A DNA stretch of 64,000 nt, taken from assembly GCF_024498175.1 (NCBI RefSeq), contig NZ_CP101823.1:2672987-2736986 (forward strand), read 5' to 3'. The notes beneath the pieces are model-generated. The model worked only from the letters and a program-made list of their open reading frames with translations. It ran no database searches and was not told where the DNA came from. The stretch is from Haloplanus salinarum (GTDB lineage Archaea > Halobacteriota > Halobacteria > Halobacteriales > Haloferacaceae). Positions 7,653 through 38,996 of the stretch are shown one piece after another. Numbering within the stretch: position 1 is the first letter of the stretch; each line of letters starts with the position of its first letter. Both the position numbers and the translations under genes were made by a program.

Positions 7653-8399
7653 CTACGACGTCGCGTCGTCGGGCGGGCGACCGGTCGCCGGATCGAGCGC
7701 GACGAACTCCAGCCCGTCGCGTTCCAGTAGCGACGCCGCCCGATCGGTCACGGAGGGCGCGACGAGGACGCCGCGGATCGACGCCTCGTCGCCGAACTCG
7801 CGTTCGAGCGCGTCGACGTAGCGGCGGAGTTGACCGACGGCGTCCGGCCCCACCCGCCGGCGCTTCAACTCGACGGCCACCGGCCGCCCTGCCGCGTCTT
7901 CGCCGAAGACGTCGACGGGGCCGGCGTCGGTCTCGCGTTCCGTCGCCAGCGGCTCGAACCCGGGGTCGATCCGCTCGGGGTTGGCGACGACGTGTTCCTT
8001 GAGGTCGGCCTCGCTCCCCTGCAAGTCGAGTTCGTCGGGGTCGGTCACGTCGTAGGCGGCGAGGTGGTGGACCCGATCGAACCGGACGTCGAGGAGTTCC
8101 TCGGGCGATCGGCGGACGCTCCGCACGCGCAGTCCGCCGTCCCGAACGCTCGCGAAGTGGTCACAGCCCGGCGGTTGCCAGTTGACCGGCGTCCGCCCCT
8201 CGTCGGTGTGGACGAGCGCCGAGCCGTCGGGTTTGAGCAAGAGAAGTCGGTCACCGGAACCGAGGCTGCTCGACGCGCGGCCGTCGTATTCGACGGTACA
8301 CCGCCCGAAGACGGTGATCAGGTCGCCGCGACGGAAGGCGTCCTCGAGGTGGGTGAGCGCGTCCCGGTGGGCGGGGCGGTGGAGCGTGGTGACCGTCAT
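7653..8399 (-). CDS. nucS: NucS/EndoMS mismatch-specific endonuclease
   Basis: The 248-residue protein starts at ATG 8399; a longer frame to 8483 adds low-quality sequence. The N-terminal DNA-binding domain includes GRCTVEYDGRASS and NWQPPG. The C-terminal RecB-like nuclease shows GPVDVFGED...VAVELKRRR, carrying the Asp and the Glu-x-Lys of a PD-(D/E)XK site. Family members cut both strands around mismatches (EndoMS) or act on branched DNA, and bind PCNA, often through a C-terminal peptide. Its presence near mutS and mutL is discussed as a finding. It is divergent from the DICT gene. Confidence 0.9.
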   Translation of the reverse strand: MTVTTLHRPAHRDALTHLEDAFRRGDLITVFGRCTVEYDGRASSSLGSGDRLLLLKPDGSALVHTDEGRTPVNWQPPGCDHFASVRDGGLRVRSVRRSPEELLDVRFDRVHHLAAYDVTDPDELDLQGSEADLKEHVVANPERIDPGFEPLATERETDAGPVDVFGEDAAGRPVAVELKRRRVGPDAVGQLRRYVDALEREFGDEASIRGVLVAPSVTDRAASLLERDGLEFVALDPATGRPPDDATS

Positions 8400-9387: not shown

Positions 9388-9972
9388 TTACGGGTCGAGG
9401 GAGTGGTCGTCCCGTCCGCCGTCGGCGAGCGCACGGTTCAGGTACGGGTCGTCCAGTGGGCGGTAGTCGATCCGCGAGGCGAGACGCGACAGTTCGGCTT
9501 CGAAGGCGCTGTAGATGGGATCGGCTTGGAGAACCGACTGCGACTCCGATTCGAGCAGGGCCACCCGCTTCGAGAGCTTCTCGACGTACCGGTCGACCGT
9601 CTCGGGGAGCGACTCGCGACGGAACAACGACTCGACCATGTCCCCGAACTCGTCGCGGGACACCGGCTTGGTGAGGTAGGCGTCGATGTCGAGGTCGACG
9701 ATATCGACGTCCGGCGTCGCCGCCGTCACGAACGCGACCCGCGGACCCGCAGGGTCGTCACGGAGGGCGTCGAGCACCTCGTCGCCGGACACGCGGGGCA
9801 TATGTCGGTCGAGGACCGCCACGTCGACGTCGCCCTCGTCGCAGTGGGCGAGCGCCGCCGCGCCGCAGCCCGCGCGGACGACCTCCGCGTCGATGTCGCC
9901 GAGCCACGTCGCATAGAGGTCCAACAGCGCGGGTTCGTCGTCAGCGATCAGCACGCACGGCGCGTCGGTCAT
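9388..9972 (-). CDS. HalX-domain response regulator
   Basis: The 194-residue protein has a receiver domain (about 1-115) with acidic pair Asp11/Asp12, phospho-acceptor Asp55 in VLDRHMPR and Lys102 in LTKPVS. A HalX domain follows (about 120-190), a coiled-coil-like haloarchaeal output domain without a known DNA-binding motif. Its start overlaps the stop of the upstream gene by 4 nt (ATGA, 9969-9972), so it is very probably translated together with the secreted repeat protein. The cognate kinase is not adjacent. Confidence 0.93.
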   Translation of the reverse strand: MTDAPCVLIADDEPALLDLYATWLGDIDAEVVRAGCGAAALAHCDEGDVDVAVLDRHMPRVSGDEVLDALRDDPAGPRVAFVTAATPDVDIVDLDIDAYLTKPVSRDEFGDMVESLFRRESLPETVDRYVEKLSKRVALLESESQSVLQADPIYSAFEAELSRLASRIDYRPLDDPYLNRALADGGRDDHSLDP

Positions 9973-11324
9973 CGGTTGCCCCCGGCGTTGCCGTTGCCGC
10001 CCGAGCCGCCCGAGCCGCCCGAGCCACCCGAACCGCCCGAGCCACCCGAGTCGCCCGAACCACCCGAGCCACCCGAACCGCCCGAGCCACCCGAACCGCC
10101 CGAACCGCCCGAGCCACCCGAGTCGCCCGAACCACCCGAGCCGCCCGAGCCGCCACCGGCACTGTCACCATCGTCGGATCCGCCCGAACCGCCACCGGCA
10201 CTGTCACCATCGTCGGATCCGCCCGAACCGCCCGAGTTCCCGTTGCCACCGGCACTGTCATCGTCGTCGGAGCCGCCGGCATCACCGGAGCTGTCGTCGT
10301 CCGAGCCGTCCGAGTCGTCCGAGCTGTCCGAGTTGCCCGAACGGCCGTCACCGTTTCCCGAGTCGTCCGAGTTGCCCGAACGGCCGTCACCGTTTCCCGA
10401 GTCGTCCGAGTTGCCCGAACGGCCGTCACCGTTTCCCGAGTCGTCCTCCCGGCCGTTGCCGTTCCCGGCCTCGTCCGGGGGACCGGAGTCATCGTCGTTG
10501 CCCGCCTCGTCGGGAGAGCCTGCACCGTTGCCGTTGCCCTCGTCGTCTTCGTCGTCCTCGTCGTCCTCGTCGTCCTCGTCGTCCTCGTCGTCTTCGTCGT
10601 CCTCGTCGTCACCCTGTGCGGGCTCCGGCAACTCGCCCGGGCCGCGCTCGGGACCGACCCCCCGACCGGGGTTCTCGCCGGCGATGTCGCGGGCCATCTC
10701 GGCGACCTCCGGACCCTGCATTTCGTCGGCGTCCTCCCGCAGTCGGTCGAGTTCGGTCCGCTCCACGCCGGAGGATTCGAGCGCTTCGTCGGGAAGCTCG
10801 TTCGACACCTCGGAGTTCGCCTCGATCCGGGTCTGGAGCGAGCGCACCTGGGCACTGATCACGGCCATCCGGGAACGGAACTCACCGGTCGAAATCTCCC
10901 CGGATCGGTGCCGCTCGCGGAGGCGATCCTGGCGTTCGCGAAGGTCGGCGAGTCGGTCGCGGATCCGGTTGACGTCCGACGCGACCACCGCCGCCTTCGA
11001 GTCGTTGGATTCGGCTCGCGCGACGCGGGTCGCCAGCGACCGTTCGCCGATCTCTCCCTCGATTTCGGCGCCCTGAACGCCGATGACGCCGGCGAGTCGC
11101 TCCCCCGGCGCGACGGACGCGTTGTCGGTCCCCGCGGCTCCGCCGGTCGTCGTTTCGTTGTCGGTCCCCGCGTCGGTCGTCTGTGGCGACACCTCGTCGG
11201 TCGCCGTGTCGGGGGCTGCGGGCGAATCGGGCGCCCCCAGCGCCGACGCCGGCGCCGCCACCGCGCCGACGACGGCGACGAGGGCGAGTGCGAACACGAC
11301 GACGTTCGGAACGTCCCTGCTCAT
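9969..11324 (-). CDS. Secreted Gly/Ser/Asp-repeat protein (DUF7096-like)
   Basis: The 451-residue protein begins with a Sec-type signal (about 1-29, VVVFALALVAVVGAVAA core). An alpha-helical region (about 85-215) includes LRERQDRLRERH and resembles an uncharacterised haloarchaeal family I recall as DUF7096. From about residue 225 it becomes low complexity: runs of Asp-Asp-Glu, three copies of a 13-residue SGNGDGRSGNSDD unit, then Gly-Gly-Ser repeats to the end. The sequence suggests an exported, extended surface protein. It overlaps the response regulator by 4 nt. A TATA-like AGTTTATCC lies about 30-40 nt upstream on the coding strand. Confidence 0.8.
   Translation of the reverse strand: MSRDVPNVVVFALALVAVVGAVAAPASALGAPDSPAAPDTATDEVSPQTTDAGTDNETTTGGAAGTDNASVAPGERLAGVIGVQGAEIEGEIGERSLATRVARAESNDSKAAVVASDVNRIRDRLADLRERQDRLRERHRSGEISTGEFRSRMAVISAQVRSLQTRIEANSEVSNELPDEALESSGVERTELDRLREDADEMQGPEVAEMARDIAGENPGRGVGPERGPGELPEPAQGDDEDDEDDEDDEDDEDDEDDEDDEGNGNGAGSPDEAGNDDDSGPPDEAGNGNGREDDSGNGDGRSGNSDDSGNGDGRSGNSDDSGNGDGRSGNSDSSDDSDGSDDDSSGDAGGSDDDDSAGGNGNSGGSGGSDDGDSAGGGSGGSDDGDSAGGGSGGSGGSGDSGGSGGSGGSGGSGGSGGSGGSGDSGGSGGSGGSGGSGGSGGNGNAGGNR
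10330..10446. repeat. Three perfect 39-bp tandem repeats
   Basis: A 39-bp unit recurs at 10330-10368, 10369-10407 and 10408-10446 without visible change, encoding the SGNGDGRSGNSDD repeat of the secreted protein. Identity at third codon positions points to recent duplication or gene conversion. Confidence 0.9.
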
Positions 11325-14203: not shown

Positions 14204-16831
14204 ATGACCGCCGATGGTATCGTCGGGGAGTTCCTCGCCCTGAAGGCGGAGACCGACGCCGACCTGCTGGCGATGCAGTGTGGCGACTTCTACGAGTTCT
14301 TCGCGGAGGACGCGGAGTTCGTCGGGGACGAACTCGACCTGAAAGTCTCGGAGAAGTCCTCGCACGGCTCGACGTATCCGATGGCGGGAGTGCCGGTCGA
14401 CGACCTCACGCCCTACCTGAAGGCGCTCGTCGAGCGTGGCTACCGCGTCGCCGTCGCCGACCAGTACGAGACCGATGACGGCCACGCCCGCGAGATAACG
14501 CGGGTCGTCACCCCCGGAACGCTGCTGGAGACGACGGATCCCACCGCCCGGTTCCTGGCGGCCGTCGTCGCCGTCGACGGCCGCTACGGGCTCGCGCTCG
14601 CTGACGTGACGACGGGCGAGTTCCTCGTGACGACGACGGACGCGGCCGCGGAGGTGCGTGCCGAACTCCACCGGTTCGACCCCGCGGAGGTGTTGCCGGG
14701 GCCGACCGTCCGCGACGACGACTCCCTCCCGAACGGGGTGGGGACCGACGCCCCGGTGATCGAGTACGACGACGCGGCGTTCGCCCCGGGGCGGGCCGAC
14801 CGGCGACTGCGCGAGCACTTCGGGGAGGGCGTCCTCGACAGCGTCGGCCTGACGGATCGGGCGGGCGTCGCCGCCGCGGGCGCCGTCCTCGCGTACGTCG
14901 ACGAGACGGGGGTGGGCGTCCTCGACGCGCTGACGCGGCTGGGAACCTACGACACCGGCGACCACCTCGACCTGGACGCGACGACACAGCGCAACCTCGA
15001 ACTCACGGAGACGATGCACGGGGAGCGCGAGGGGTCGCTCCTGGCGACGGTCGATCACACGGTCACGAGCGCCGGCGGGCGTCGCCTCCGGGAGTGGCTC
15101 ACCCGGCCCCGGCGCGACCGGGACGTGATCGACAGACGGCTCGACAGCGTGGCGGCGTTCGCCGAGGCGGCGCTCGCCCGTGACCGGGTTCGGGAGGTGC
15201 TGGACGACGCCTACGACCTCGAACGCCTGGCGGCGCGGGCGACGAGCGGGAGCGCGGACGCGACGGACCTGCTCTCGATCCGGGACACCCTCGATACCCT
15301 CCCCGCGCTCGCCGACGCAGTCGCGGACTCCCGGCTCGCGGAGTCGCCGCTGCCGGGGATCGTCGATCGCCCGGATCGGGAGACTGCGGCGTCGCTCCGG
15401 GCGGAACTCGACGCCGCGCTCGCGCCCGACCCGCCGGGGACGGTCACCGAGGGCGGCCTCTTTCGCCGCGGCTACGACGACGAACTCGACGACCTGATCG
15501 ACCGGTACGAGGAGGCCCGAGGATGGCTCGACGGTCTCGCCGACCGCGAGAAGGCCCGGACCGGGATCACCCACCTGCAGGTCGACCGCAACAAGACCGA
15601 CGGCTACTACATCCAGGTGGGGAACTCGGAAACCGACGCCGTCCCCGAGGAGTATCGGGAGATCAAGACGCTGAAGAACTCGAAGCGGTACACCACCGAC
15701 GAGTTGGCCGAGCGGGAACGCGAGGTGTTGCGACTGGAGGAGGCCCGCGGCGACCTGGAGTACGAACTCTTCGGCGAACTCCGCGACCGGGTGGCGGGCC
15801 ACGCCGAACTCCTGCAGGACGTGGGGCGGATGCTGGCGACGGTGGACGCCCTCGCCTCGCTCGCGACCCACGCGGCGAGCCAGGACTGGACGCGCCCCGA
15901 GGTGGTCGAACCCGGGCCGCTCGTCGTCGAGGCCGGCCGCCACCCGGTCGTCGAGACGACGACCGACTTCGTCCCCAACGACCTCCACCTCGATTCGGAC
16001 CGCGGGTTCCTGCTCGTCACCGGGCCGAACATGAGCGGCAAGTCGACGTACATGCGCCAGGCGGCGCTGATCGTCCTGCTGGCGCAGGCGGGGAGTTTCG
16101 TCCCCGCGCGGACCGCGACGGTGGGCGTCGTCGACGGCATCTACACCCGCGTCGGCGCCCTCGACGAACTCGCGGGCGGCCGGTCGACCTTCATGGTCGA
16201 GATGGAGGAGTTGAGCAACATCCTCCACTCGGCGACCGAGGAGTCGCTGGTCGTCCTCGACGAGGTGGGCCGCGGGACGGCGACCTACGACGGCATCTCC
16301 ATCGCGTGGGCGACGACGGAGTATATCCACAACGAGGTGGGCTGTAAGTGCCTCTTCGCCACCCACTACCACGAACTGACGGCGCTCGCCGACCACCTCC
16401 CGCGGGTCGAGAACGTCCACGTCGCCGTCGCGGGCGACGACGACGAGGACGGCGACATCACGTTCCTCCGGACGGTCGAGGAGGGGCCGACCGACCGGAG
16501 CTACGGCGTCCACGTCGCGGAACTGGCGGGCGTGCCCGCTCCGGTCGTCGACCGATCCCGGGACGTGCTCGACCGCCTGCGCGAGGACCGGGCCATCGAG
16601 GCCCGCGGGGCCGGGACGGGCGACGGGGGGACCACGCAGGCCGTCTTCGACCTCGGATCCGGCGACTTCCGGACCGACGGGACGGCGGCGGCGGACGACG
16701 CGGCGACGCTCGATCCGACCACTGAGACGGTCCTCGCGGAACTGCGGGAGACGAGCGTCGCGGAGACGTCGCCGGTCGACCTCATGACGCGGGTCCGCGA
16801 GTGGCAGGACCGACTCGACGACGGCGACTGA
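14204..16831 (+). CDS. mutS: DNA mismatch repair ATPase MutS
   Basis: The 875-residue protein recognises mismatches and signals to MutL. The mismatch-binding domain has MQCGDFYEFFAEDA near the N-terminus (the Phe-x-Glu type wedge motif, with FYEFF). The ABC-type ATPase domain has Walker A TGPNMSGKSTYMRQ (about 605-618), Walker B SLVVLDEVGRGT and THYHELT. The C-terminal about 100 residues are an acidic/alanine-rich linker plus a helical tail ending LMTRVREWQDRL. Length matches bacterial MutS1. mutL lies 2.8 kb downstream on the same strand with five genes between. Confidence 0.97.
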   Translation: MTADGIVGEFLALKAETDADLLAMQCGDFYEFFAEDAEFVGDELDLKVSEKSSHGSTYPMAGVPVDDLTPYLKALVERGYRVAVADQYETDDGHAREITRVVTPGTLLETTDPTARFLAAVVAVDGRYGLALADVTTGEFLVTTTDAAAEVRAELHRFDPAEVLPGPTVRDDDSLPNGVGTDAPVIEYDDAAFAPGRADRRLREHFGEGVLDSVGLTDRAGVAAAGAVLAYVDETGVGVLDALTRLGTYDTGDHLDLDATTQRNLELTETMHGEREGSLLATVDHTVTSAGGRRLREWLTRPRRDRDVIDRRLDSVAAFAEAALARDRVREVLDDAYDLERLAARATSGSADATDLLSIRDTLDTLPALADAVADSRLAESPLPGIVDRPDRETAASLRAELDAALAPDPPGTVTEGGLFRRGYDDELDDLIDRYEEARGWLDGLADREKARTGITHLQVDRNKTDGYYIQVGNSETDAVPEEYREIKTLKNSKRYTTDELAEREREVLRLEEARGDLEYELFGELRDRVAGHAELLQDVGRMLATVDALASLATHAASQDWTRPEVVEPGPLVVEAGRHPVVETTTDFVPNDLHLDSDRGFLLVTGPNMSGKSTYMRQAALIVLLAQAGSFVPARTATVGVVDGIYTRVGALDELAGGRSTFMVEMEELSNILHSATEESLVVLDEVGRGTATYDGISIAWATTEYIHNEVGCKCLFATHYHELTALADHLPRVENVHVAVAGDDDEDGDITFLRTVEEGPTDRSYGVHVAELAGVPAPVVDRSRDVLDRLREDRAIEARGAGTGDGGTTQAVFDLGSGDFRTDGTAAADDAATLDPTTETVLAELRETSVAETSPVDLMTRVREWQDRLDDGD

Positions 16832-19596: not shown

Positions 19597-19659
19597 CGGC
19601 GTCGAACCGCCACGGGCGGCACCGTGGCGTTGATGATCCTTCCTCCCGAGCTATCGAGC

Positions 19660-21945
19660 GTGAGCGAGACGCCGACCATCCACGCACTGGACGACGCGAC
19701 GGTCCGACGCATCGCCGCCGGCGAGGTGGTCGAGCGTCCGGCGAGCGTCGTGAAGGAACTGCTCGAGAACAGTCTCGACGCCGACGCCTCGCGCGTGACC
19801 GTCGCCGTCGAGGGCGGGGGCGTCGAGGGGATCCGCGTCCGCGACGACGGGGTCGGCATGACCGCCGCGGACTTGGAGCGGGCGGTCGAGGAGCACACGA
19901 CCAGCAAGATCACGGGGGGCGACGACCTCGACCAAGTGGGCACGCTGGGGTTCCGCGGTGAGGCGCTCCACACCATCGGCGCGGTGTCGCGGCTGACGAT
20001 CCGGTCGCGCCCCCGGTCGGGCGGGCGCGGGCACGAACTCACCGTCGAGGGCGGGACGGCCGGCGAGGTCACCCCCTCGGGCTGTCCGCCGGGAACGGTC
20101 GTCGAGGTCGCGGACCTGTTCTACAACACGCCGGCCCGGCGGAAGTTCCTCAAGACCGAGACGACGGAGTTCGACCACGTCAACCGCGTGGTGACCCAGT
20201 ACGCCCTCGCCAACCCCGACGTGGCGACGACGCTCGAACACGACGGCCGCGAGGTGTTCGCCACCGAGGGTGCGGGCGACCTCGAATCGACCGTCCTCGC
20301 GGTCTACGGCCGCGAGGTGGCGTCGTCGATGATCGAGGTCGACGGGGGGCGACCGGAACCCGGCGCCGACCCGTCGGGCCCCGTCGAATCGGTGTCGGGG
20401 CTCGTGAGCCACCCCGAGACGACGCGGGCGGGCCGGGAGTACCTCTCGACGTTCGTCAACGGCCGCTACGTCACCGCGGGGACGCTCCGCGAGGCCGTCC
20501 TCGACGCCTACGGCGGCCAACTGGCGACCGACCGCTACCCCTTCGCCGTCCTCTTCGTCGAGGTGCCGCCCGACGCCGTTGACGTGAACGTCCACCCCCG
20601 CAAGATGGAGGTGCGGTTCGACGACGAGGCGGCCGTCCGCGAGGCGGTGACGGCGGCCGTCCGCGAGGCGCTGCTTGAGGAGGGGCTGGTCCGGACGGCG
20701 GCCCCGCGTGGGCGCTCGGCGCCCGCGGAGACCGAAATCGACCCGTCGTCGCCGGATCGGGAGGTGGCCGGGGGGGAGGCGGCCCCCGATTCCGATTCCG
20801 ATTCCGATTCCGATTCCGATTCCGATTCCGATTCCGATTCCGATTCCGATTCCGATTCCGATTCCGATTCCGATTCCGATTCCGATTCCGATTCCGATTC
20901 CGATTCCGATTCCGATTCCGATTCCGATTCCGATTCCGATTCCCACGCCGGTGCCGGCTCGGACTCCGACGACGGATCCGACCGGGACACGAGCCCGACG
21001 CCCGACCGCGACGCGGGGACCGCCGCCGTCCCGACGGGGACCGAACCGGCGGACGAGCGCGGGTCCGACGACGTGGGGAGCGACACCCGCTCGGACGGGA
21101 CGACCCGAGCGTCGACCCTCGACGAGGCGACGGCGGACGGCGCGGTCGGGACCGGCGGGAGCGAGGAGGTGACGCCGGAACCCGTCGGTGACGACGGTGT
21201 CGAGGGAACGGCCAGCGACCCCGCCGAGCCGGCGGCCGACCGCGACGCGGACGCCGACGGCCCGTGGCACGCCGGCGGGATCCGTCCGCCGAGCGAGCAG
21301 CGGACGCTCGACGGCGACCGGGCGGCGCCGGACCGCGACTTCGAGCGCCTGCCCGCAATGTGCGTCCTCGGACAGTACGACGACACGTACCTGGTCGCGG
21401 AGACGGCCGACGGCCTGGCCCTGATCGACCAGCACGCGGCCGACGAGCGGGTGAACTACGAGCGGCTTCGGGCACAGTTCGACGGCGACACGACCACCCA
21501 GGTGTTGGCGGAGCCGGTCGAAATCGAACTGACCGCCCGCGAAGCGGCGGTGTTCGACACCTACGAAGACGCCGTCGCTCAGTTGGGATTCCACGCCGAC
21601 CGCGTCGACGACCGAACCGTCCGGGTGACGACCGTGCCCACCGTCGTCGCCGACTCGGTCGGCCCGACGCTGATCCGCGACGTTCTGACCAACTTCGTCG
21701 ACGACGAGCGGGATGCCGAAGGGACGATCGACGAAGTGGCCGACGACCTGCTGGCGGATATGGCGTGTCACCCGTCGATCACGGGCAACACGTCGCTGAC
21801 GGAGGGGTCGGTGTTCGACCTCCTGTCGGCGCTCGACGACTGTGACAACCCGTGGGCGTGCCCGCACGGCCGGCCGGTGGTGATCTCGTTCGACCACGAC
21901 GAGATCAGCGACCGGTTCGAGCGGGACTACCCGGGACACGACTGA
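19660..21945 (+). CDS. mutL: DNA mismatch repair protein MutL with a long Asp-Ser repeat linker
   Basis: The preferred start is GTG 19660 ([12 protein letters not shown]), which matches usual archaeal and bacterial MutL N-termini; ATG 19633 is possible. This gives 761 residues. The GHKL ATPase has ENSLDA (about 36-41), DDGVGM and GFRGEAL. The linker holds 26 Asp-Ser repeats (about 377-428) and further acidic low-complexity sequence. The C-terminal domain carries [12 protein letters not shown], which fits the DQHAx2Ex4E metal-binding endonuclease motif, plus ACHPSI and CPHGRP. It is therefore predicted to nick DNA in mismatch repair together with MutS. Confidence 0.96.
20788..20943. repeat. 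Perfect GATTCC hexanucleotide repeat, 26 copies
   Basis: A 156-bp run of GATTCC without a single interruption encodes 26 Asp-Ser pairs in the MutL linker. Neighbouring Asp-Ser codons outside the run (GACTCCGAC) differ, so codon identity inside is not explained by protein selection and indicates slippage-driven expansion. A change in copy number keeps the frame. Confidence 0.97.
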
Positions 21946-22190: not shown

Positions 22191-24518
22191 ATGTGTGCGT
22201 GCTGGACTCGACGGGAGGCTCTGCGGATGGCGGGCTGTACGGCCGTAGGAGGGCTGTTGCTATCGCCGGGTACTGCGAGTGGACAGAGCGGTGAATCGTG
22301 GCCGGAATCGGGGTACGACGACGGGAATACGGACTACGCTCCCGAGAATACGGGCCCGGTGGCGAACGTGGAAGAAGCGTGGCGTCACGAACTGGATTCC
22401 ACCCCCGGCGACATAACGGTCGCGAACGGGAACGTCTACGTGAGCAGTCTGCAACTCGACAACCCGCTATACTCGCTGGAAGCTACTTCCGGTGCCGAAC
22501 GTTGGACTGCCCAGGGTAACGACGTTGAGATAGCGGACGGCTCCATCTACACACACGACGAGAGAAACGTGCTCGCGTTGAATCCGGGCGATGGGACCGA
22601 GCGATGGCGGTCGGAGCGTACGTTTTCGGACGTCGATATCGGTCCCCCGTCGATCGCGGACGACCAAATATTCGCCGTATCGTACGACACTGGAAACGAA
22701 ACCAGTGGTGTACACGCATTAGGGATCGACAGTGGAGCCGAACGATGGCGTTTCGAGGGGAAGGGAAGAGTTATCGCCCATCCAGCGATAGGAGCCGATT
22801 CGGTGTTCGTAGGGACGAACAGCAATTATCTCTACGCGATCCGGAGGAGCGATGGGACCGAGCGGTGGCGGTTCCGTACCCAGAGCATGGTCCTATCAAC
22901 GGTTCTATCCGACGGGGTCGTGTACTTCGGCGGCGACGAGTACGTGTATGCCGTCGATGCCGCCACCGGGAGCGAGCGCTGGCGGTTCCAAGCGGGAACG
23001 CCGTCTACGGGGTCAACACCGACGGCGTCGGTACCCACGATAGTCGCCGAGGATACCGTATACGCCCGAGGTGACGATACCATCTACGCGTTGAACACGA
23101 CCGACGGTACGGAGCGATGGCGGATCGAAAGTGGGGGTACGGCAATTGCGATGGTCGGGGACGTGATCTATGCGTACGACGACCGTGGGCTCTATGCGCT
23201 GGATTCGGATGACAGAAGCGAACGATGGCGCGTTCAGCTGGACGATGGATTGGCAGGGTTCGCGGTGGCCAACGGAACGATCTATGCCGGAAGTCGGAAC
23301 GATTCCGTATATGCCCTGAGCGGTGACACGCCGAATCAGGGTCAGATGGCGTCCACGACGACGAACACGCAGGCCGACAACGGCAGTGATCTCGGAGGAG
23401 GAACGGGGAAGCCATCCCAAGGTACCGAAGGCGGGGAGGGTGGTTCGGGGGTCATGGTCCCGCTCGCGGGTGCACTCGCTGCCGGGGCGGGGGGCGGCCT
23501 CTGGTACTGGCACCGCAGTGACGACGACGGGGAGCGGAGTCAGGGTGGAGTGACCGACGACGACCGTTCGACAGCTAGCGGATCGATGGGCGAGCGGGCA
23601 CGGAGTTACGACGGCCCGGATCGGTCGTCCTCCTTAGGCGTCGCTACCCAGTTCGACCGCGCACCGGGCGAAATACCTCGCGCACCGGACGTCCCCATCG
23701 ACTACGAGGACCTCGTCGAGCGGGGGACGATCGGAACGGGCGAAGAAGCCGAAGTCGTGCGAGCTACGTACCCGACAGCGGAGGGAGACGTTGACCTCGC
23801 AGTGAAACGGCCCCGTATGAGCGGAACACTACACCAGGAGAGAGTCGAGGAGATCATGGAAAGTGCCGAGACGTGGGACAAGTTGGACGACCACGATCAC
23901 GTCGTCGGCGTCCTCGATTACGACGCGGACCCCGTTCCGTGGATCGCCATGGAGTACATGGACGGTGGGACGCTCTCCGAACGAGCGGGTGACCTCGACT
24001 TCGACCGCGCGTGCTGGGTCGCGGTGGCGATCGCCGACGGCGTCCACCACGCCCACCGAAGGGGGGTCGCTCACCTCGATCTCGTCCCCTCGAACGTACT
24101 CTTCCGATCGGTCGAGAACGCGTGGGACGTTCCAAAAGTCGGGGACTGGGGTATCGCGAAACGCCTGTTCGAACACTCGAAAAGCATCGAGACGATATCG
24201 CCACAGCACGCCGCACCCGAACAGTTCAGCGACGAGTACGGTGCGACGGACGATCTGACCGACGTATATCAACTCGGATCGATATTCTACGAGCTGTTCA
24301 CGGGGAAGCCACCGTTTACCGGCAGACCAGCTACGGTCATGGATCGCGTTCTACACGAGGAGCCGACCCCACCGAGCGAGGTGGCGGAGGTCCCCACGGA
24401 ACTCGACGACGTACTGTCGACCGCACTGTCCAAGCACAAAGACGAGCGGTACGAATCCGTTCTCCTACTGCAGCGGGCCATCCGTGACCTGTACGTCGAC
24501 CGACACGGCCAGCAGTAG
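22191..24518 (+). CDS. Receptor kinase A: Tat signal, PQQ-like propeller, membrane helix, Ser/Thr kinase
   Basis: The 775-residue protein starts with a Tat signal (WTRREALRMAG). Seven ERW-type motifs at about residues 103, 137, 184, 224, 262, 308 and 344 mark a PQQ-like beta-propeller, predicted outside the cell. After a Gly/Ser linker comes a single membrane helix (about 421-440), then a Hanks-type kinase (about 508-740) inside: Lys539 in LAVKRP, Glu588 in IAMEYMDGG, Asp630 in HLDLVPSN, Asp652 in DWG, and APEQF. Two departures stand out: HLD replaces HRD (non-RD kinase), and Val632 replaces the catalytic-loop Lys kept in its three paralogues. The Gly-rich loop GTGEEAEV also lacks the last glycine. 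It is likely a sensor; activity may be reduced. Confidence 0.85.
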   Translation: MCACWTRREALRMAGCTAVGGLLLSPGTASGQSGESWPESGYDDGNTDYAPENTGPVANVEEAWRHELDSTPGDITVANGNVYVSSLQLDNPLYSLEATSGAERWTAQGNDVEIADGSIYTHDERNVLALNPGDGTERWRSERTFSDVDIGPPSIADDQIFAVSYDTGNETSGVHALGIDSGAERWRFEGKGRVIAHPAIGADSVFVGTNSNYLYAIRRSDGTERWRFRTQSMVLSTVLSDGVVYFGGDEYVYAVDAATGSERWRFQAGTPSTGSTPTASVPTIVAEDTVYARGDDTIYALNTTDGTERWRIESGGTAIAMVGDVIYAYDDRGLYALDSDDRSERWRVQLDDGLAGFAVANGTIYAGSRNDSVYALSGDTPNQGQMASTTTNTQADNGSDLGGGTGKPSQGTEGGEGGSGVMVPLAGALAAGAGGGLWYWHRSDDDGERSQGGVTDDDRSTASGSMGERARSYDGPDRSSSLGVATQFDRAPGEIPRAPDVPIDYEDLVERGTIGTGEEAEVVRATYPTAEGDVDLAVKRPRMSGTLHQERVEEIMESAETWDKLDDHDHVVGVLDYDADPVPWIAMEYMDGGTLSERAGDLDFDRACWVAVAIADGVHHAHRRGVAHLDLVPSNVLFRSVENAWDVPKVGDWGIAKRLFEHSKSIETISPQHAAPEQFSDEYGATDDLTDVYQLGSIFYELFTGKPPFTGRPATVMDRVLHEEPTPPSEVAEVPTELDDVLSTALSKHKDERYESVLLLQRAIRDLYVDRHGQQ

Positions 24519-24576: not shown

Positions 24577-26904
24577 ATGTCGATGGGTCGACACTGGACG
24601 CGAAGAAAGGCGATACGGGTCGCCGGAAGCGCAGCTATCGGAGGCGGGGCACTGCTGTCGGGGGGAACGAACGGGGCCGCCGGCCAGCGCGCAGAAACGT
24701 GGACGCAGTACGGATACGACGGCGCAAATACGGGACACGCACCGGACAACACGGGGTTCACCGAAAACGTGGGGGTAGACTGGCGGTTTCAGGCGGAGCG
24801 AAGCGTGATGTCGTCGCCCGCAGTCGTCAACAACGTTCTTTACGTGGCCACCGGACCGCATCAAAACCCGGGGAACGGACACGTCTACGCGCTGGATACG
24901 GGCGCTGGGACGGAGATCTGGCGTTTCGAAACCGAAGACGAGTTCGGTGCGTTTGGCCTCTCGTCGCCGACGATCGTGGACGACAAAATAATATTGAATA
25001 ATGAAGGAAGAGTCCACGCACTCAGTCGGGACGATGGTAAGGCGCTGTGGAGCGAGTGGGTCAGTTCCAACGCACACACTTCCTCGACTGTCGTAGATGG
25101 GACCGTCTTCGTGGCGGGCGATTCCTCCGATGCGGGTCTGTACGCGCTATCGGCGAGCGATGGCACCGAGCAGTGGTTCTTCGGGACACAGGGGCGGGTG
25201 AGTACGACACCCGCAGTGGCAAACGGCACCGTGTACGTCGCGGCACGGGAGAGAGGGAGCGACGAAGCGACGGTGCATGCCATAGACACCGCGAACGGAA
25301 CCGAACGCTGGCGATTCGACGGAGCCAGCGACGCGATTCACTCCTCGCCAGCGGTGGCCGGGGATACGGTCTATTTCGGCAGTCACGATACTACCGTATA
25401 CGCCCTGAACACGGACGACGGAAGCGAACGCTGGCGATTCGAAGCAGAGCAAGAGATCTTTTCTTCGCCCGCGGTTGCGAACGGGACCGTCTACGTCGGG
25501 GCCGTCAGTCAACTCCATGCCCTGGATGCACAGGACGGAAGCGAACGCTGGCGCTTCGAGATGGGCACGTTCCGATCCTCACCGGTGGTGGTGAACGGAG
25601 TGGTGTATTTCGGCGGCACCAACGACTACGTGTACGCAGTAAACGCGAACGACGGGTCCCAACTGTGGCGGTTCGAGGCACTCAATTCGGTTTCGTCCTC
25701 TCCAGCGGTCGTGAACGGGACCGTCTACATCGGCAGCGAAGATAACAACGTGTACGCACTGACGGGCGACGCAACCTCACAGGTCGAGACGGAGAGCCGG
25801 ATCCAAACACCGACCGCGACCCAACCAGCAACCGCTTCGAGTACCGGGACCGACGGCGATGAAACCGACGAGAACGGTGTCGGTGGTGACGGACGGACGT
25901 CGAGTCGAACGCCCGAGGGAGACGGTGGTAACGGGGACCTCATCGTGCCGCTAACGGGCGTACTCGCGGGGGCTGGAGGCGGAATCTGGTACTGGCGACA
26001 CAACGGTGAGAACGGGGCCATCTGGACGCACGGTCCACTAGGGGGAACACAAAGTATGGGCCCCCCCGAACGAGTGCCGCAGGCCCCGGCAGTGGACGTT
26101 GTTTACGATGAGCTCACGGACGAGGAACCGATCGGGGCAGGAGGGAGCGCCGATGTGGTCAAAGTAACGCTACCGACATCCGAGGGCGACGTCCCCCTCG
26201 CGATCAAACGCCCACGGACGAGTAACACGCTGGAGGTTGACGAAGTCGAAACGTTGTTACGAGAGGCCGAGACGTGGGACAAACTCGACGATCACGACCA
26301 CATCGTCGGCGTGGTGGACTATGGAGCGACTCCGCTTCCCTGGATCGCCATGGAGTACATGGACGGCGGTGATCTCTCCGAGCGAACCGGCGATCTCGAG
26401 TTCGATCAGGCGGTGTGGACTGCGGAGGCGATCGCGAGGGGCGTCCGCCACGCTCACCGTCGCGGCGTCGCTCACCTCGATCTCAAGCCCGCGAACGTCC
26501 TCTTCCGGTCGATCGAGGACGCCTGGGACGTGCCGAAGGTCGCCGACTGGGGCCTTTCGAAACATCTGATCGAACGTTCGGAAACGGTCGAGGGACTGTC
26601 ACCACAGTACGCGGCACCCGAACAGTTCGATGACGACTTCGGAGTTCCCGACGACGTCACGGACGTGTACCAACTCGGAACGGTCCTGTACGAGTTGTTC
26701 ACGGGGAAGCCGCCGTTCGAGGGCCAGCCGGCGAAGGCGATGCACAGAGTGTTGAACGAACGACCGACACCACCGAGCGAGATATCGGATGTGCCCCCTG
26801 CGTTGGACGACATCCTTCTTCCCGCATTGGCCAAGGAGAAAAAAGACCGCTACGAGTCGGTTTTGCTGTTACAGAAGGCACTGCAAGAGCTACGAGACGA
26901 CTGA
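24577..26904 (+). CDS. Receptor kinase B: Tat signal, PQQ-like propeller, membrane helix, Ser/Thr kinase
   Basis: The 775-residue paralogue of kinase A is encoded 58 nt downstream on the same strand. It has a Tat signal (WTRRKAIRVAG), propeller repeats of the GSERWRFE type with SSPAV/NGTVYVG strands (about 65-395), a Thr/Ser/Gly linker, a membrane helix (about 454-473) and a kinase domain (about 510-765). Key residues are intact: GAGGSADV loop, Lys544, Asp635 in HLDLKPAN, Asp657 in DWG, and APEQF. HRD is HLD as in all four copies. No propeller PQQ-ligand set is obvious, so the propeller is better read as a binding or sensor module than a dehydrogenase. Codon use is visibly more AT-rich than in neighbouring core genes. 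Confidence 0.88.
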   Translation: MSMGRHWTRRKAIRVAGSAAIGGGALLSGGTNGAAGQRAETWTQYGYDGANTGHAPDNTGFTENVGVDWRFQAERSVMSSPAVVNNVLYVATGPHQNPGNGHVYALDTGAGTEIWRFETEDEFGAFGLSSPTIVDDKIILNNEGRVHALSRDDGKALWSEWVSSNAHTSSTVVDGTVFVAGDSSDAGLYALSASDGTEQWFFGTQGRVSTTPAVANGTVYVAARERGSDEATVHAIDTANGTERWRFDGASDAIHSSPAVAGDTVYFGSHDTTVYALNTDDGSERWRFEAEQEIFSSPAVANGTVYVGAVSQLHALDAQDGSERWRFEMGTFRSSPVVVNGVVYFGGTNDYVYAVNANDGSQLWRFEALNSVSSSPAVVNGTVYIGSEDNNVYALTGDATSQVETESRIQTPTATQPATASSTGTDGDETDENGVGGDGRTSSRTPEGDGGNGDLIVPLTGVLAGAGGGIWYWRHNGENGAIWTHGPLGGTQSMGPPERVPQAPAVDVVYDELTDEEPIGAGGSADVVKVTLPTSEGDVPLAIKRPRTSNTLEVDEVETLLREAETWDKLDDHDHIVGVVDYGATPLPWIAMEYMDGGDLSERTGDLEFDQAVWTAEAIARGVRHAHRRGVAHLDLKPANVLFRSIEDAWDVPKVADWGLSKHLIERSETVEGLSPQYAAPEQFDDDFGVPDDVTDVYQLGTVLYELFTGKPPFEGQPAKAMHRVLNERPTPPSEISDVPPALDDILLPALAKEKKDRYESVLLLQKALQELRDD

Positions 26905-38231: not shown

Positions 38232-38996
38232 AGTGCCCCTGTCTACCCCGTCGCCGCATAAAATCTTGTTCTTTCGGGCGTTGGTCGGGGCACACCGTGG
38301 GACCGTTCGATATCGCGATATGCGATTGATGGACGGTGCGACCGTGACCCCATCCCCCGAACGGGCCTTCGGCGACCGAGCGGCGCGAAAACAGAGGGGG
38401 CGCGTGCAGCACCGGGAAATCGCCGTGCTCGCCGGCGTTTCACGTCGAACGGTAGTTCGAATCCACCCGATCCCACGCCGACGAGCGCGCCGGTGAAGTG
38501 GCTGGCGTGGATTCGAATCAGGGAGTGAAACGACCGTGGTTCGAATCCATCCGCGAACGACAGCGAGCGGATGGGAGGTTCGAGCCCAGAGGACGGAAGT
38601 CCTCGTGGTTCGAATCCATCCGCGAACGACAGCGAGCGGATGGGAGGTTCGAGCCCAGAGGACGGAAGTCCTCGTGGTTCGAATCCATCCGCGAACGACA
38701 GCGGTGCCGTCCACCCGGGACGCTCGCCCCGGAGACACCGGTGAGCGGGGAAAGGAATCCCGTGGGCGACCCGGGGACGAGGTAGCTTCGGGGCGACTCC
38801 GGACGTCGCGCATGCGGTCGTTCTCCCACGGCCCGCGAGGGATCGAACGAAAGGAGCGTGGTCGGCGTGCGCCGGTATCGAGTCCGATCGGCCGGGGTGT
38901 GGGTCGGGCGAAGAACGGGTGGCCCCGGACGGGATCTACCGGAGCCGACAGTTCCTGATAAATCTCATATCGCGATACGGAATCGATCGGGCGCGG
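38232..38996. other. Gene-free region with tandem repeats and palindromes
   Basis: 765 bp between the L39e operon promoter and thpR with no ORF that looks coding. It holds a 69-bp tandem repeat (38536-38703), TTCGAATCC-containing inverted fragments at about 38454-38515, and two ATATCGCGATA palindromes near 38310 and 38966. Confidence 0.6.
38536..38703. repeat. 69-bp tandem repeat, 2.4 copies, with two hairpins per unit
   Basis: Units at 38536-38604 and 38605-38673 are identical; a 30-bp third copy ends at 38703. Each unit contains GGTTCGAATCC (T-arm-like), a CATCCGC/GCGGATG hairpin and a GAGGAC-GGAA-GTCCTC hairpin, plus a second TTCGAGCCC motif. There are no spacers, so it is not CRISPR. No coding frame is supported. 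Confidence 0.9.

Follow-up and report, generated by a model that had tools for sequence, protein, structure and literature searches.

The stretch of DNA analyzed here (the window, 64,000 nucleotides of the Haloplanus salinarum genome) carries mismatch-repair genes and, within one of them, an uninterrupted array of identical hexamers. The features on which the analysis rests are the following.

7680-8015, minus strand: match to nucS/endoMS, an alternative mismatch-repair gene (PF01939, 100.9 bits)
14228-16591, plus strand: mutS1, the nearby partner gene (TIGR01070, 824 bits, over the cut-off)
19660-21945, plus strand: mutL, of the MutL endonuclease family (open reading frame with TIGR00585 and Pfam matches; the longest frame opens at the GTG at 19624)
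20707-20730, plus strand: 5' linker anchor RGRSAPAE, part of an RSxAPRGRS-like motif
20731-21297, plus strand: hypervariable linker middle that holds the tract (column conservation and a weak structure model)
20788-20943, plus strand: perfect (GATTCC)26 hexamer tract, read in frame as (Asp-Ser)26 (exact string comparison, Tandem Repeats Finder and whole-genome pattern search)
21298-21315, plus strand: 3' linker anchor QRTLDG, a QxTLxG-like motif
21427-21462, plus strand: intact DQHA(X)2E(X)4E motif (placed on the sequence by DQHAADER)

The identification of the host gene as mutL, made in a first-pass annotation of the window, is upheld by a full-length match to TIGR00585 (E 1.6e-160, 535.7 bits against a cut-off of 180) and by the Pfam domains DNA_mis_repair at residues 226-350 and MutL_C at residues 582-725 (E 1.5e-36). 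Homologous MutL proteins align from about SETPTIHAL onward, and the GTG at 19660 is therefore a likelier start than the GTG at 19624. The DQHA(X)2E(X)4E motif is one that we take to mark endonuclease-type MutL. Comparison with three congeners gives the N-terminal domain a dN/dS of 0.13-0.21, the C-terminal domain one of 0.26-0.33 and the linker one of 0.45-0.66, and the low values of the two terminal domains indicate that the folded parts of the protein are under purifying selection. The middle third of the C-terminal domain (about 21508-21717) shows 85.2% identity to one congener (G002) versus 60.5-73.5% to nine others, while the N-terminal domain shows no preference for G002, a pattern that looks like a mosaic left by recombination between Haloplanus lineages inside mutL. 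The mutS1 gene lies about 3 kb upstream of mutL, and a second mutS-mutL pair is found near 3.135-3.139 Mb of the genome.

Several other features of the window were recorded. Encoded at 9969-11324 on the minus strand is a probably secreted protein of 451 residues that opens with a hydrophobic stretch, and its second half stacks low-complexity arrays (DDE, GNGDGRSGNSDDS, GGSGGS) that correspond to 9-bp and 39-bp tandem repeats. Two adjacent proteins of 775 residues each (22191-24518 and 24577-26904, plus strand) both show, by eye, a repeat domain followed by a kinase-like domain, and are apparently tandem duplicates. Lastly, a perfect 69-bp unit is repeated 2.4 times at 38535-38703, with T-arm-like GGTTCGA stretches inside and no tRNA called.

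The hexamer tract and its rarity

Letter-for-letter string comparison confirms the 26 perfect GATTCC hexamers described at 20788-20943, which span 156 bp. Tandem Repeats Finder delimits the array as 20786-20943, with 26.3 copies at 100% match and a two-base partial copy in front. The encoded (DS)26 occupies residues 389-440, numbered from the GTG at 19624 (open reading frame 19624-21945, plus strand), and the six-base unit lies inside the coding frame, so that changes in copy number keep the frame, as the first-pass annotation had stated.

A pattern search of the whole genome, assembled as one contig (3,450,905 bp, 99.96% complete), finds the mutL tract to be the sole locus with at least four GATTCC copies in a run. 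Perfect repeats with units of up to 12 bp reach at most 33 bp in a 400 kb sample of this genome and, the tract aside, at most 64 bp in 1.2 Mb drawn from three genomes of Haloplanus; tandem repeats with units longer than 12 bp extend up to 490 bp in the same 1.2 Mb. Short tandem repeats have been described as scarce in archaeal genomes generally (PMC12699852). Of 391 genomes surveyed in the class, only 2 have a run of at least six GATTCC copies, namely the genome with the mutL tract and a second one (G043), and 7 have at least eight Asp-Ser pairs written in any form of GAYTCN, the next longest perfect Asp-Ser hexamer run read out in this survey being 15 copies of GACTCG. The other haloarchaeal Asp-Ser tracts in long reading frames mostly occupy, as judged by eye, spacer or tail regions of unrelated proteins, and their hosts include a lipoprotein, an S-layer-like stalk, a CheA-like linker and a trehalose-phosphate synthase-like tail, all named from their translations without a family search, some of the tracts perhaps lying outside real genes. 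The open-licence literature searched, in the portions available, yielded no prior account of the mutL (GATTCC)26 tract. The second genome with GATTCC runs carries three arrays outside mutL (L040, L042 and L046, with 6, 7 and 6 copies), two of them within spacer-like parts of apparent proteins, and its lineage seems prone to this unit.

Given its length, about that of a short read, and the ability of polymerase slippage to alter repeat counts, the tract might be real but assigned a wrong copy number, or stand for a mixture within the population. The single 3.45-Mb contig and its completeness suggest that long reads were used, and a perfect, in-frame array of 26 copies is not readily made by assembly error, which makes an assembly or consensus artefact highly improbable.

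A linker anchored at both ends

The setting of the tract was compared across 53 loci (30 plus 23 haloarchaeal), reduced to 43 distinct linkers after nine duplicates and one locus without a complete frame (L068) were dropped. The latter, the MutL of Halolamina pelagica CDK2, shows an apparent frame shift within the linker, which may be a frameshift or a draft error. Each anchor is present in 40 of the 43 haloarchaeal linkers at a fixed position, with the RSxAPRGRS-like motif starting 24 residues past the N-terminal landmark and the QxTLxG-like motif starting 43 residues ahead of DQHA. The latter resembles the opening of a clamp-binding peptide, with the aromatic pair missing. The tract lies after the N-terminal domain and between these conserved anchors, and its assignment to the MutL linker is thus borne out.

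Between the anchors, both sequence and length vary widely. Mean column conservation in blocks of 20 residues is 0.06-0.49 in the linker middle, whereas the two terminal domains score 0.43-0.95, and the middle spans 97-258 residues in the 37 haloarchaeal MutL proteins with both anchors. In Haloplanus salinarum it comprises 193 residues with the tract and 141 without it, both values inside this range, and in nine congeners it comprises 124-168, so that the tract-bearing linker has the greatest length in its genus and is unremarkable within the family. A MutL match was obtained in 141 of 148 genomes of the family. The open frames of these 141, a few short ones perhaps cut by contig ends, run from 437 to 975 residues with a median of 805; the tract gene, at 782, is longer than 49 of the 141. 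These comparisons show the MutL linkers of haloarchaea to be held by an anchor at each end and nearly unconstrained between the two. A weak structure model (mean pLDDT 49.5, 11 sequences) places all of residues 340-560 below a pLDDT of 50, with almost no secondary structure. The folded domains are themselves mediocre in this model, and the low linker values are hence consistent with disorder rather than diagnostic of it.

Perfect tandem repeats of at least 35 bp, counted identically across three classes of DNA, number 5 in 22.6 kb of MutL linker middles (0.22 per kb), 15 in 97.7 kb of other disorder-like coding DNA (0.15 per kb; three Haloplanus samples) and 5 in 653.8 kb of remaining coding DNA (0.008 per kb). 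A special enrichment of repeats in MutL linkers was rejected, with 5 observed versus 3.5 expected from disorder-like coding DNA (P about 0.27), in a comparison that sets linkers from many genera against three Haloplanus genomes with crude gene calls. The five linker repeats include the (GATTCC)26 tract itself and an array with an 18-bp unit in a second Haloplanus (G003).

Origin of the tract and its bearing on repair

Codon usage places the origin of the tract at the DNA level. Across 140 crude genes of the genome, GAT accounts for 9.6% of Asp codons and TCC for 22.3% of Ser codons, and mutL outside the tract uses GAT for 3 of 80 Asp and TCC for 3 of 40 Ser residues. Under independent codon choice, 26 GAT and 26 TCC codons would arise with a log10 P of about -43, and chance is therefore excluded. 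The reading of the identical codons as a mark of DNA-level expansion, put forward in the first-pass annotation, is supported by this uniformity against genome usage. Selection on the protein for a long acidic Asp-Ser spacer, acting through charge, flexibility or phosphorylation and with the DNA repeat as its route only, would accord with the recurrence of acidic Asp-Ser spacers in haloarchaeal proteins and with the acidity of the tract MutL linker, the highest of 43 (0.29, to which the tract itself contributes). Protein selection alone, however, would not keep a single codon pair, one member of which (GAT) is rare in the genome; furthermore, no other linker of the 43 has more than two Asp-Ser units in a row, and linker dN/dS is relaxed. 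Such selection is accordingly a very unlikely source of the tract.

A plausible seed for the expansion is visible in H. ruber, the nearest relative by the N-terminal domain, which has a single GATTCC at the aligned place followed by GACCCC, its GCC GAT TCC GAC CCC aligning to CCC GAT TCC GAT TCC of the tract gene. The tract is absent from all ten congeneric orthologues recovered, none of which has more than one Asp-Ser in a row in the linker; a twelfth Haloplanus genome, 79% complete, yields only the paralogue and thus falls outside this count. A stable hairpin as the driver of expansion was rejected, both strands of a 14-copy piece folding worse than shuffles (z 3.99 and 2.00) under a method that scores non-canonical G-A pairing poorly. 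The age of the tract, taken to be recent in the first-pass annotation, is weakly bounded: with about 4e-10 substitutions per site and generation (PMC9997560), a stretch of 156 bp is expected to acquire a single substitution in about 1.6e7 generations.

We consider it probable that the tract grew by slippage from an Asp-Ser seed, within a disordered linker that tolerates changes in length, and that it is nearly neutral. The process would have started from a pre-existing Asp-Ser codon pair, GAT TCC, within an acidic disordered linker, and slipped-strand replication or unequal recombination, slippage being the process we infer, would have multiplied it. Each step would add or remove two residues with the frame kept, and would be tolerated because such steps fall in a linker middle of almost unconstrained length. 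The tract is probably length-polymorphic among cells, and changes in its length would be expected to have little effect on repair. Neutral length polymorphism, the second of two alternatives offered in the first-pass annotation, is thus probably the best-fitting reading. Three observations count against tolerated expansion. The 26 copies are extreme beside the next longest run of 15, the tract is itself among the five repeats counted in MutL linkers, and linker length and sequence matter in yeast Mlh1-Pms1, where shortening, scrambling, lengthening and swapping cause mild to severe defects (PMC6393296). By analogy, this sensitivity of yeast linkers is the main result against assuming neutrality.

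The first-pass annotation offered a self-regulating mutator as the other alternative, and held that slippage in the tract would normally be corrected by MutS and MutL. Such correction is unsupported, given that E. coli MutS recognizes loops only to about four nucleotides; larger loops are reported to be beyond the reach of E. coli MutS and of the S. pombe pathway, and human MutS-alpha is reported to bind loops of up to eight (PMC8235422, PMC5427490). By analogy with E. coli MutS, a six-base loop is probably not a mismatch-repair substrate in this haloarchaeon, and no self-amplifying feedback between the tract and repair is therefore expected.

A mutability switch could nonetheless operate if copy changes altered linker length and, with it, MutL activity, generating subpopulations with different mutation rates. 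There is precedent in Salmonella, where the mutL switch has experimental support and a mutator arises when mutL loses one of its three GCTGGC copies (PMC2955026), and the yeast linkers again show sensitivity to length and sequence. For Haloferax volcanii, furthermore, a review mentions, as an unpublished result, a higher mutation rate once the canonical mutSL genes are deleted (PMC7776575). The Salmonella repeat, however, sits in the lid of the ATP pocket, whereas the Haloplanus tract sits in an unconserved linker, and tract-free relatives keep the conserved MutL domains. An E. coli MutL that has lost 40% of its linker is described as unable to bypass roadblocks and as no mutator in vivo (PMC6902014), and deletion of mutL in Halobacterium is reported to give no mutator (PMC2816208). 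The genome also holds the second mutS-mutL pair and nucS, and shows no genome-wide microsatellite excess: repeats of at least 18 bp (unit 2-9) number 7 in 400 kb, versus 5 and 13 in two congeners, and no mononucleotide run of at least 9 occurs in any of the three genome samples. With a microsatellite load between those of two congeners, a genome-wide repair defect was rejected as unsupported. A switch of this kind is therefore unlikely, and the self-regulating mutator finds no support in orthologues that have conserved domains and no tract, in a linker of free length and in the lack of any linker repeat excess. Quite unlikely, too, is a continuous rheostat, in which six-base slippage escaping repair would produce linkers differing by residue pairs and a corresponding spread of mutation or recombination-barrier levels, with linker length grading the MutL search, the bypass of bound proteins and the activation of incision.

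Relation to known repeat systems

Whatever its effect, the tract provides a clean natural case in which to gauge the effect of MutL linker length, since it combines one gene, one uniform tract and close tract-free species. The nearest known counterpart is the mutL switch of Salmonella and E. coli, likewise a six-base tandem repeat (GCTGGC, three copies) inside mutL that changes copy number in frame (PMC2955026). There, the three copies lie in the ATP lid and loss inactivates the protein; in Haloplanus, 26 copies lie in a disordered linker at residues 389-440, after the N-terminal domain, and relatives are tract-free. Should copy number prove both variable and able to change the mutation rate, the tract would be the archaeal equivalent of the enterobacterial switch, located elsewhere in the protein; variation without such an effect would make it a useful strain marker and an instance of tolerated repeat expansion.

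The other haloarchaeal Asp-Ser tracts share the dipeptide, the hexamer type and the spacer position with the mutL tract, which differs from them in being the longest perfect run seen and in having a mismatch-repair enzyme as host. The Ser-Asp repeat regions of MSCRAMM surface proteins, which are variable in their repeats, likewise form an Asp-Ser dipeptide spacer from short DNA repeats, but the likeness is one of composition only, without homology, and the weak NCBIfam matches fall far under the cut-off. With phase-variable contingency loci, lastly, the tract shares a long perfect simple repeat, of 26 copies, which is presumably prone to slippage. It does not share the switching of expression or frame by copy change, the six-base unit keeping the frame. 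The tract would seem to be an in-frame repeat expansion of uncommon length and commonplace mechanism.
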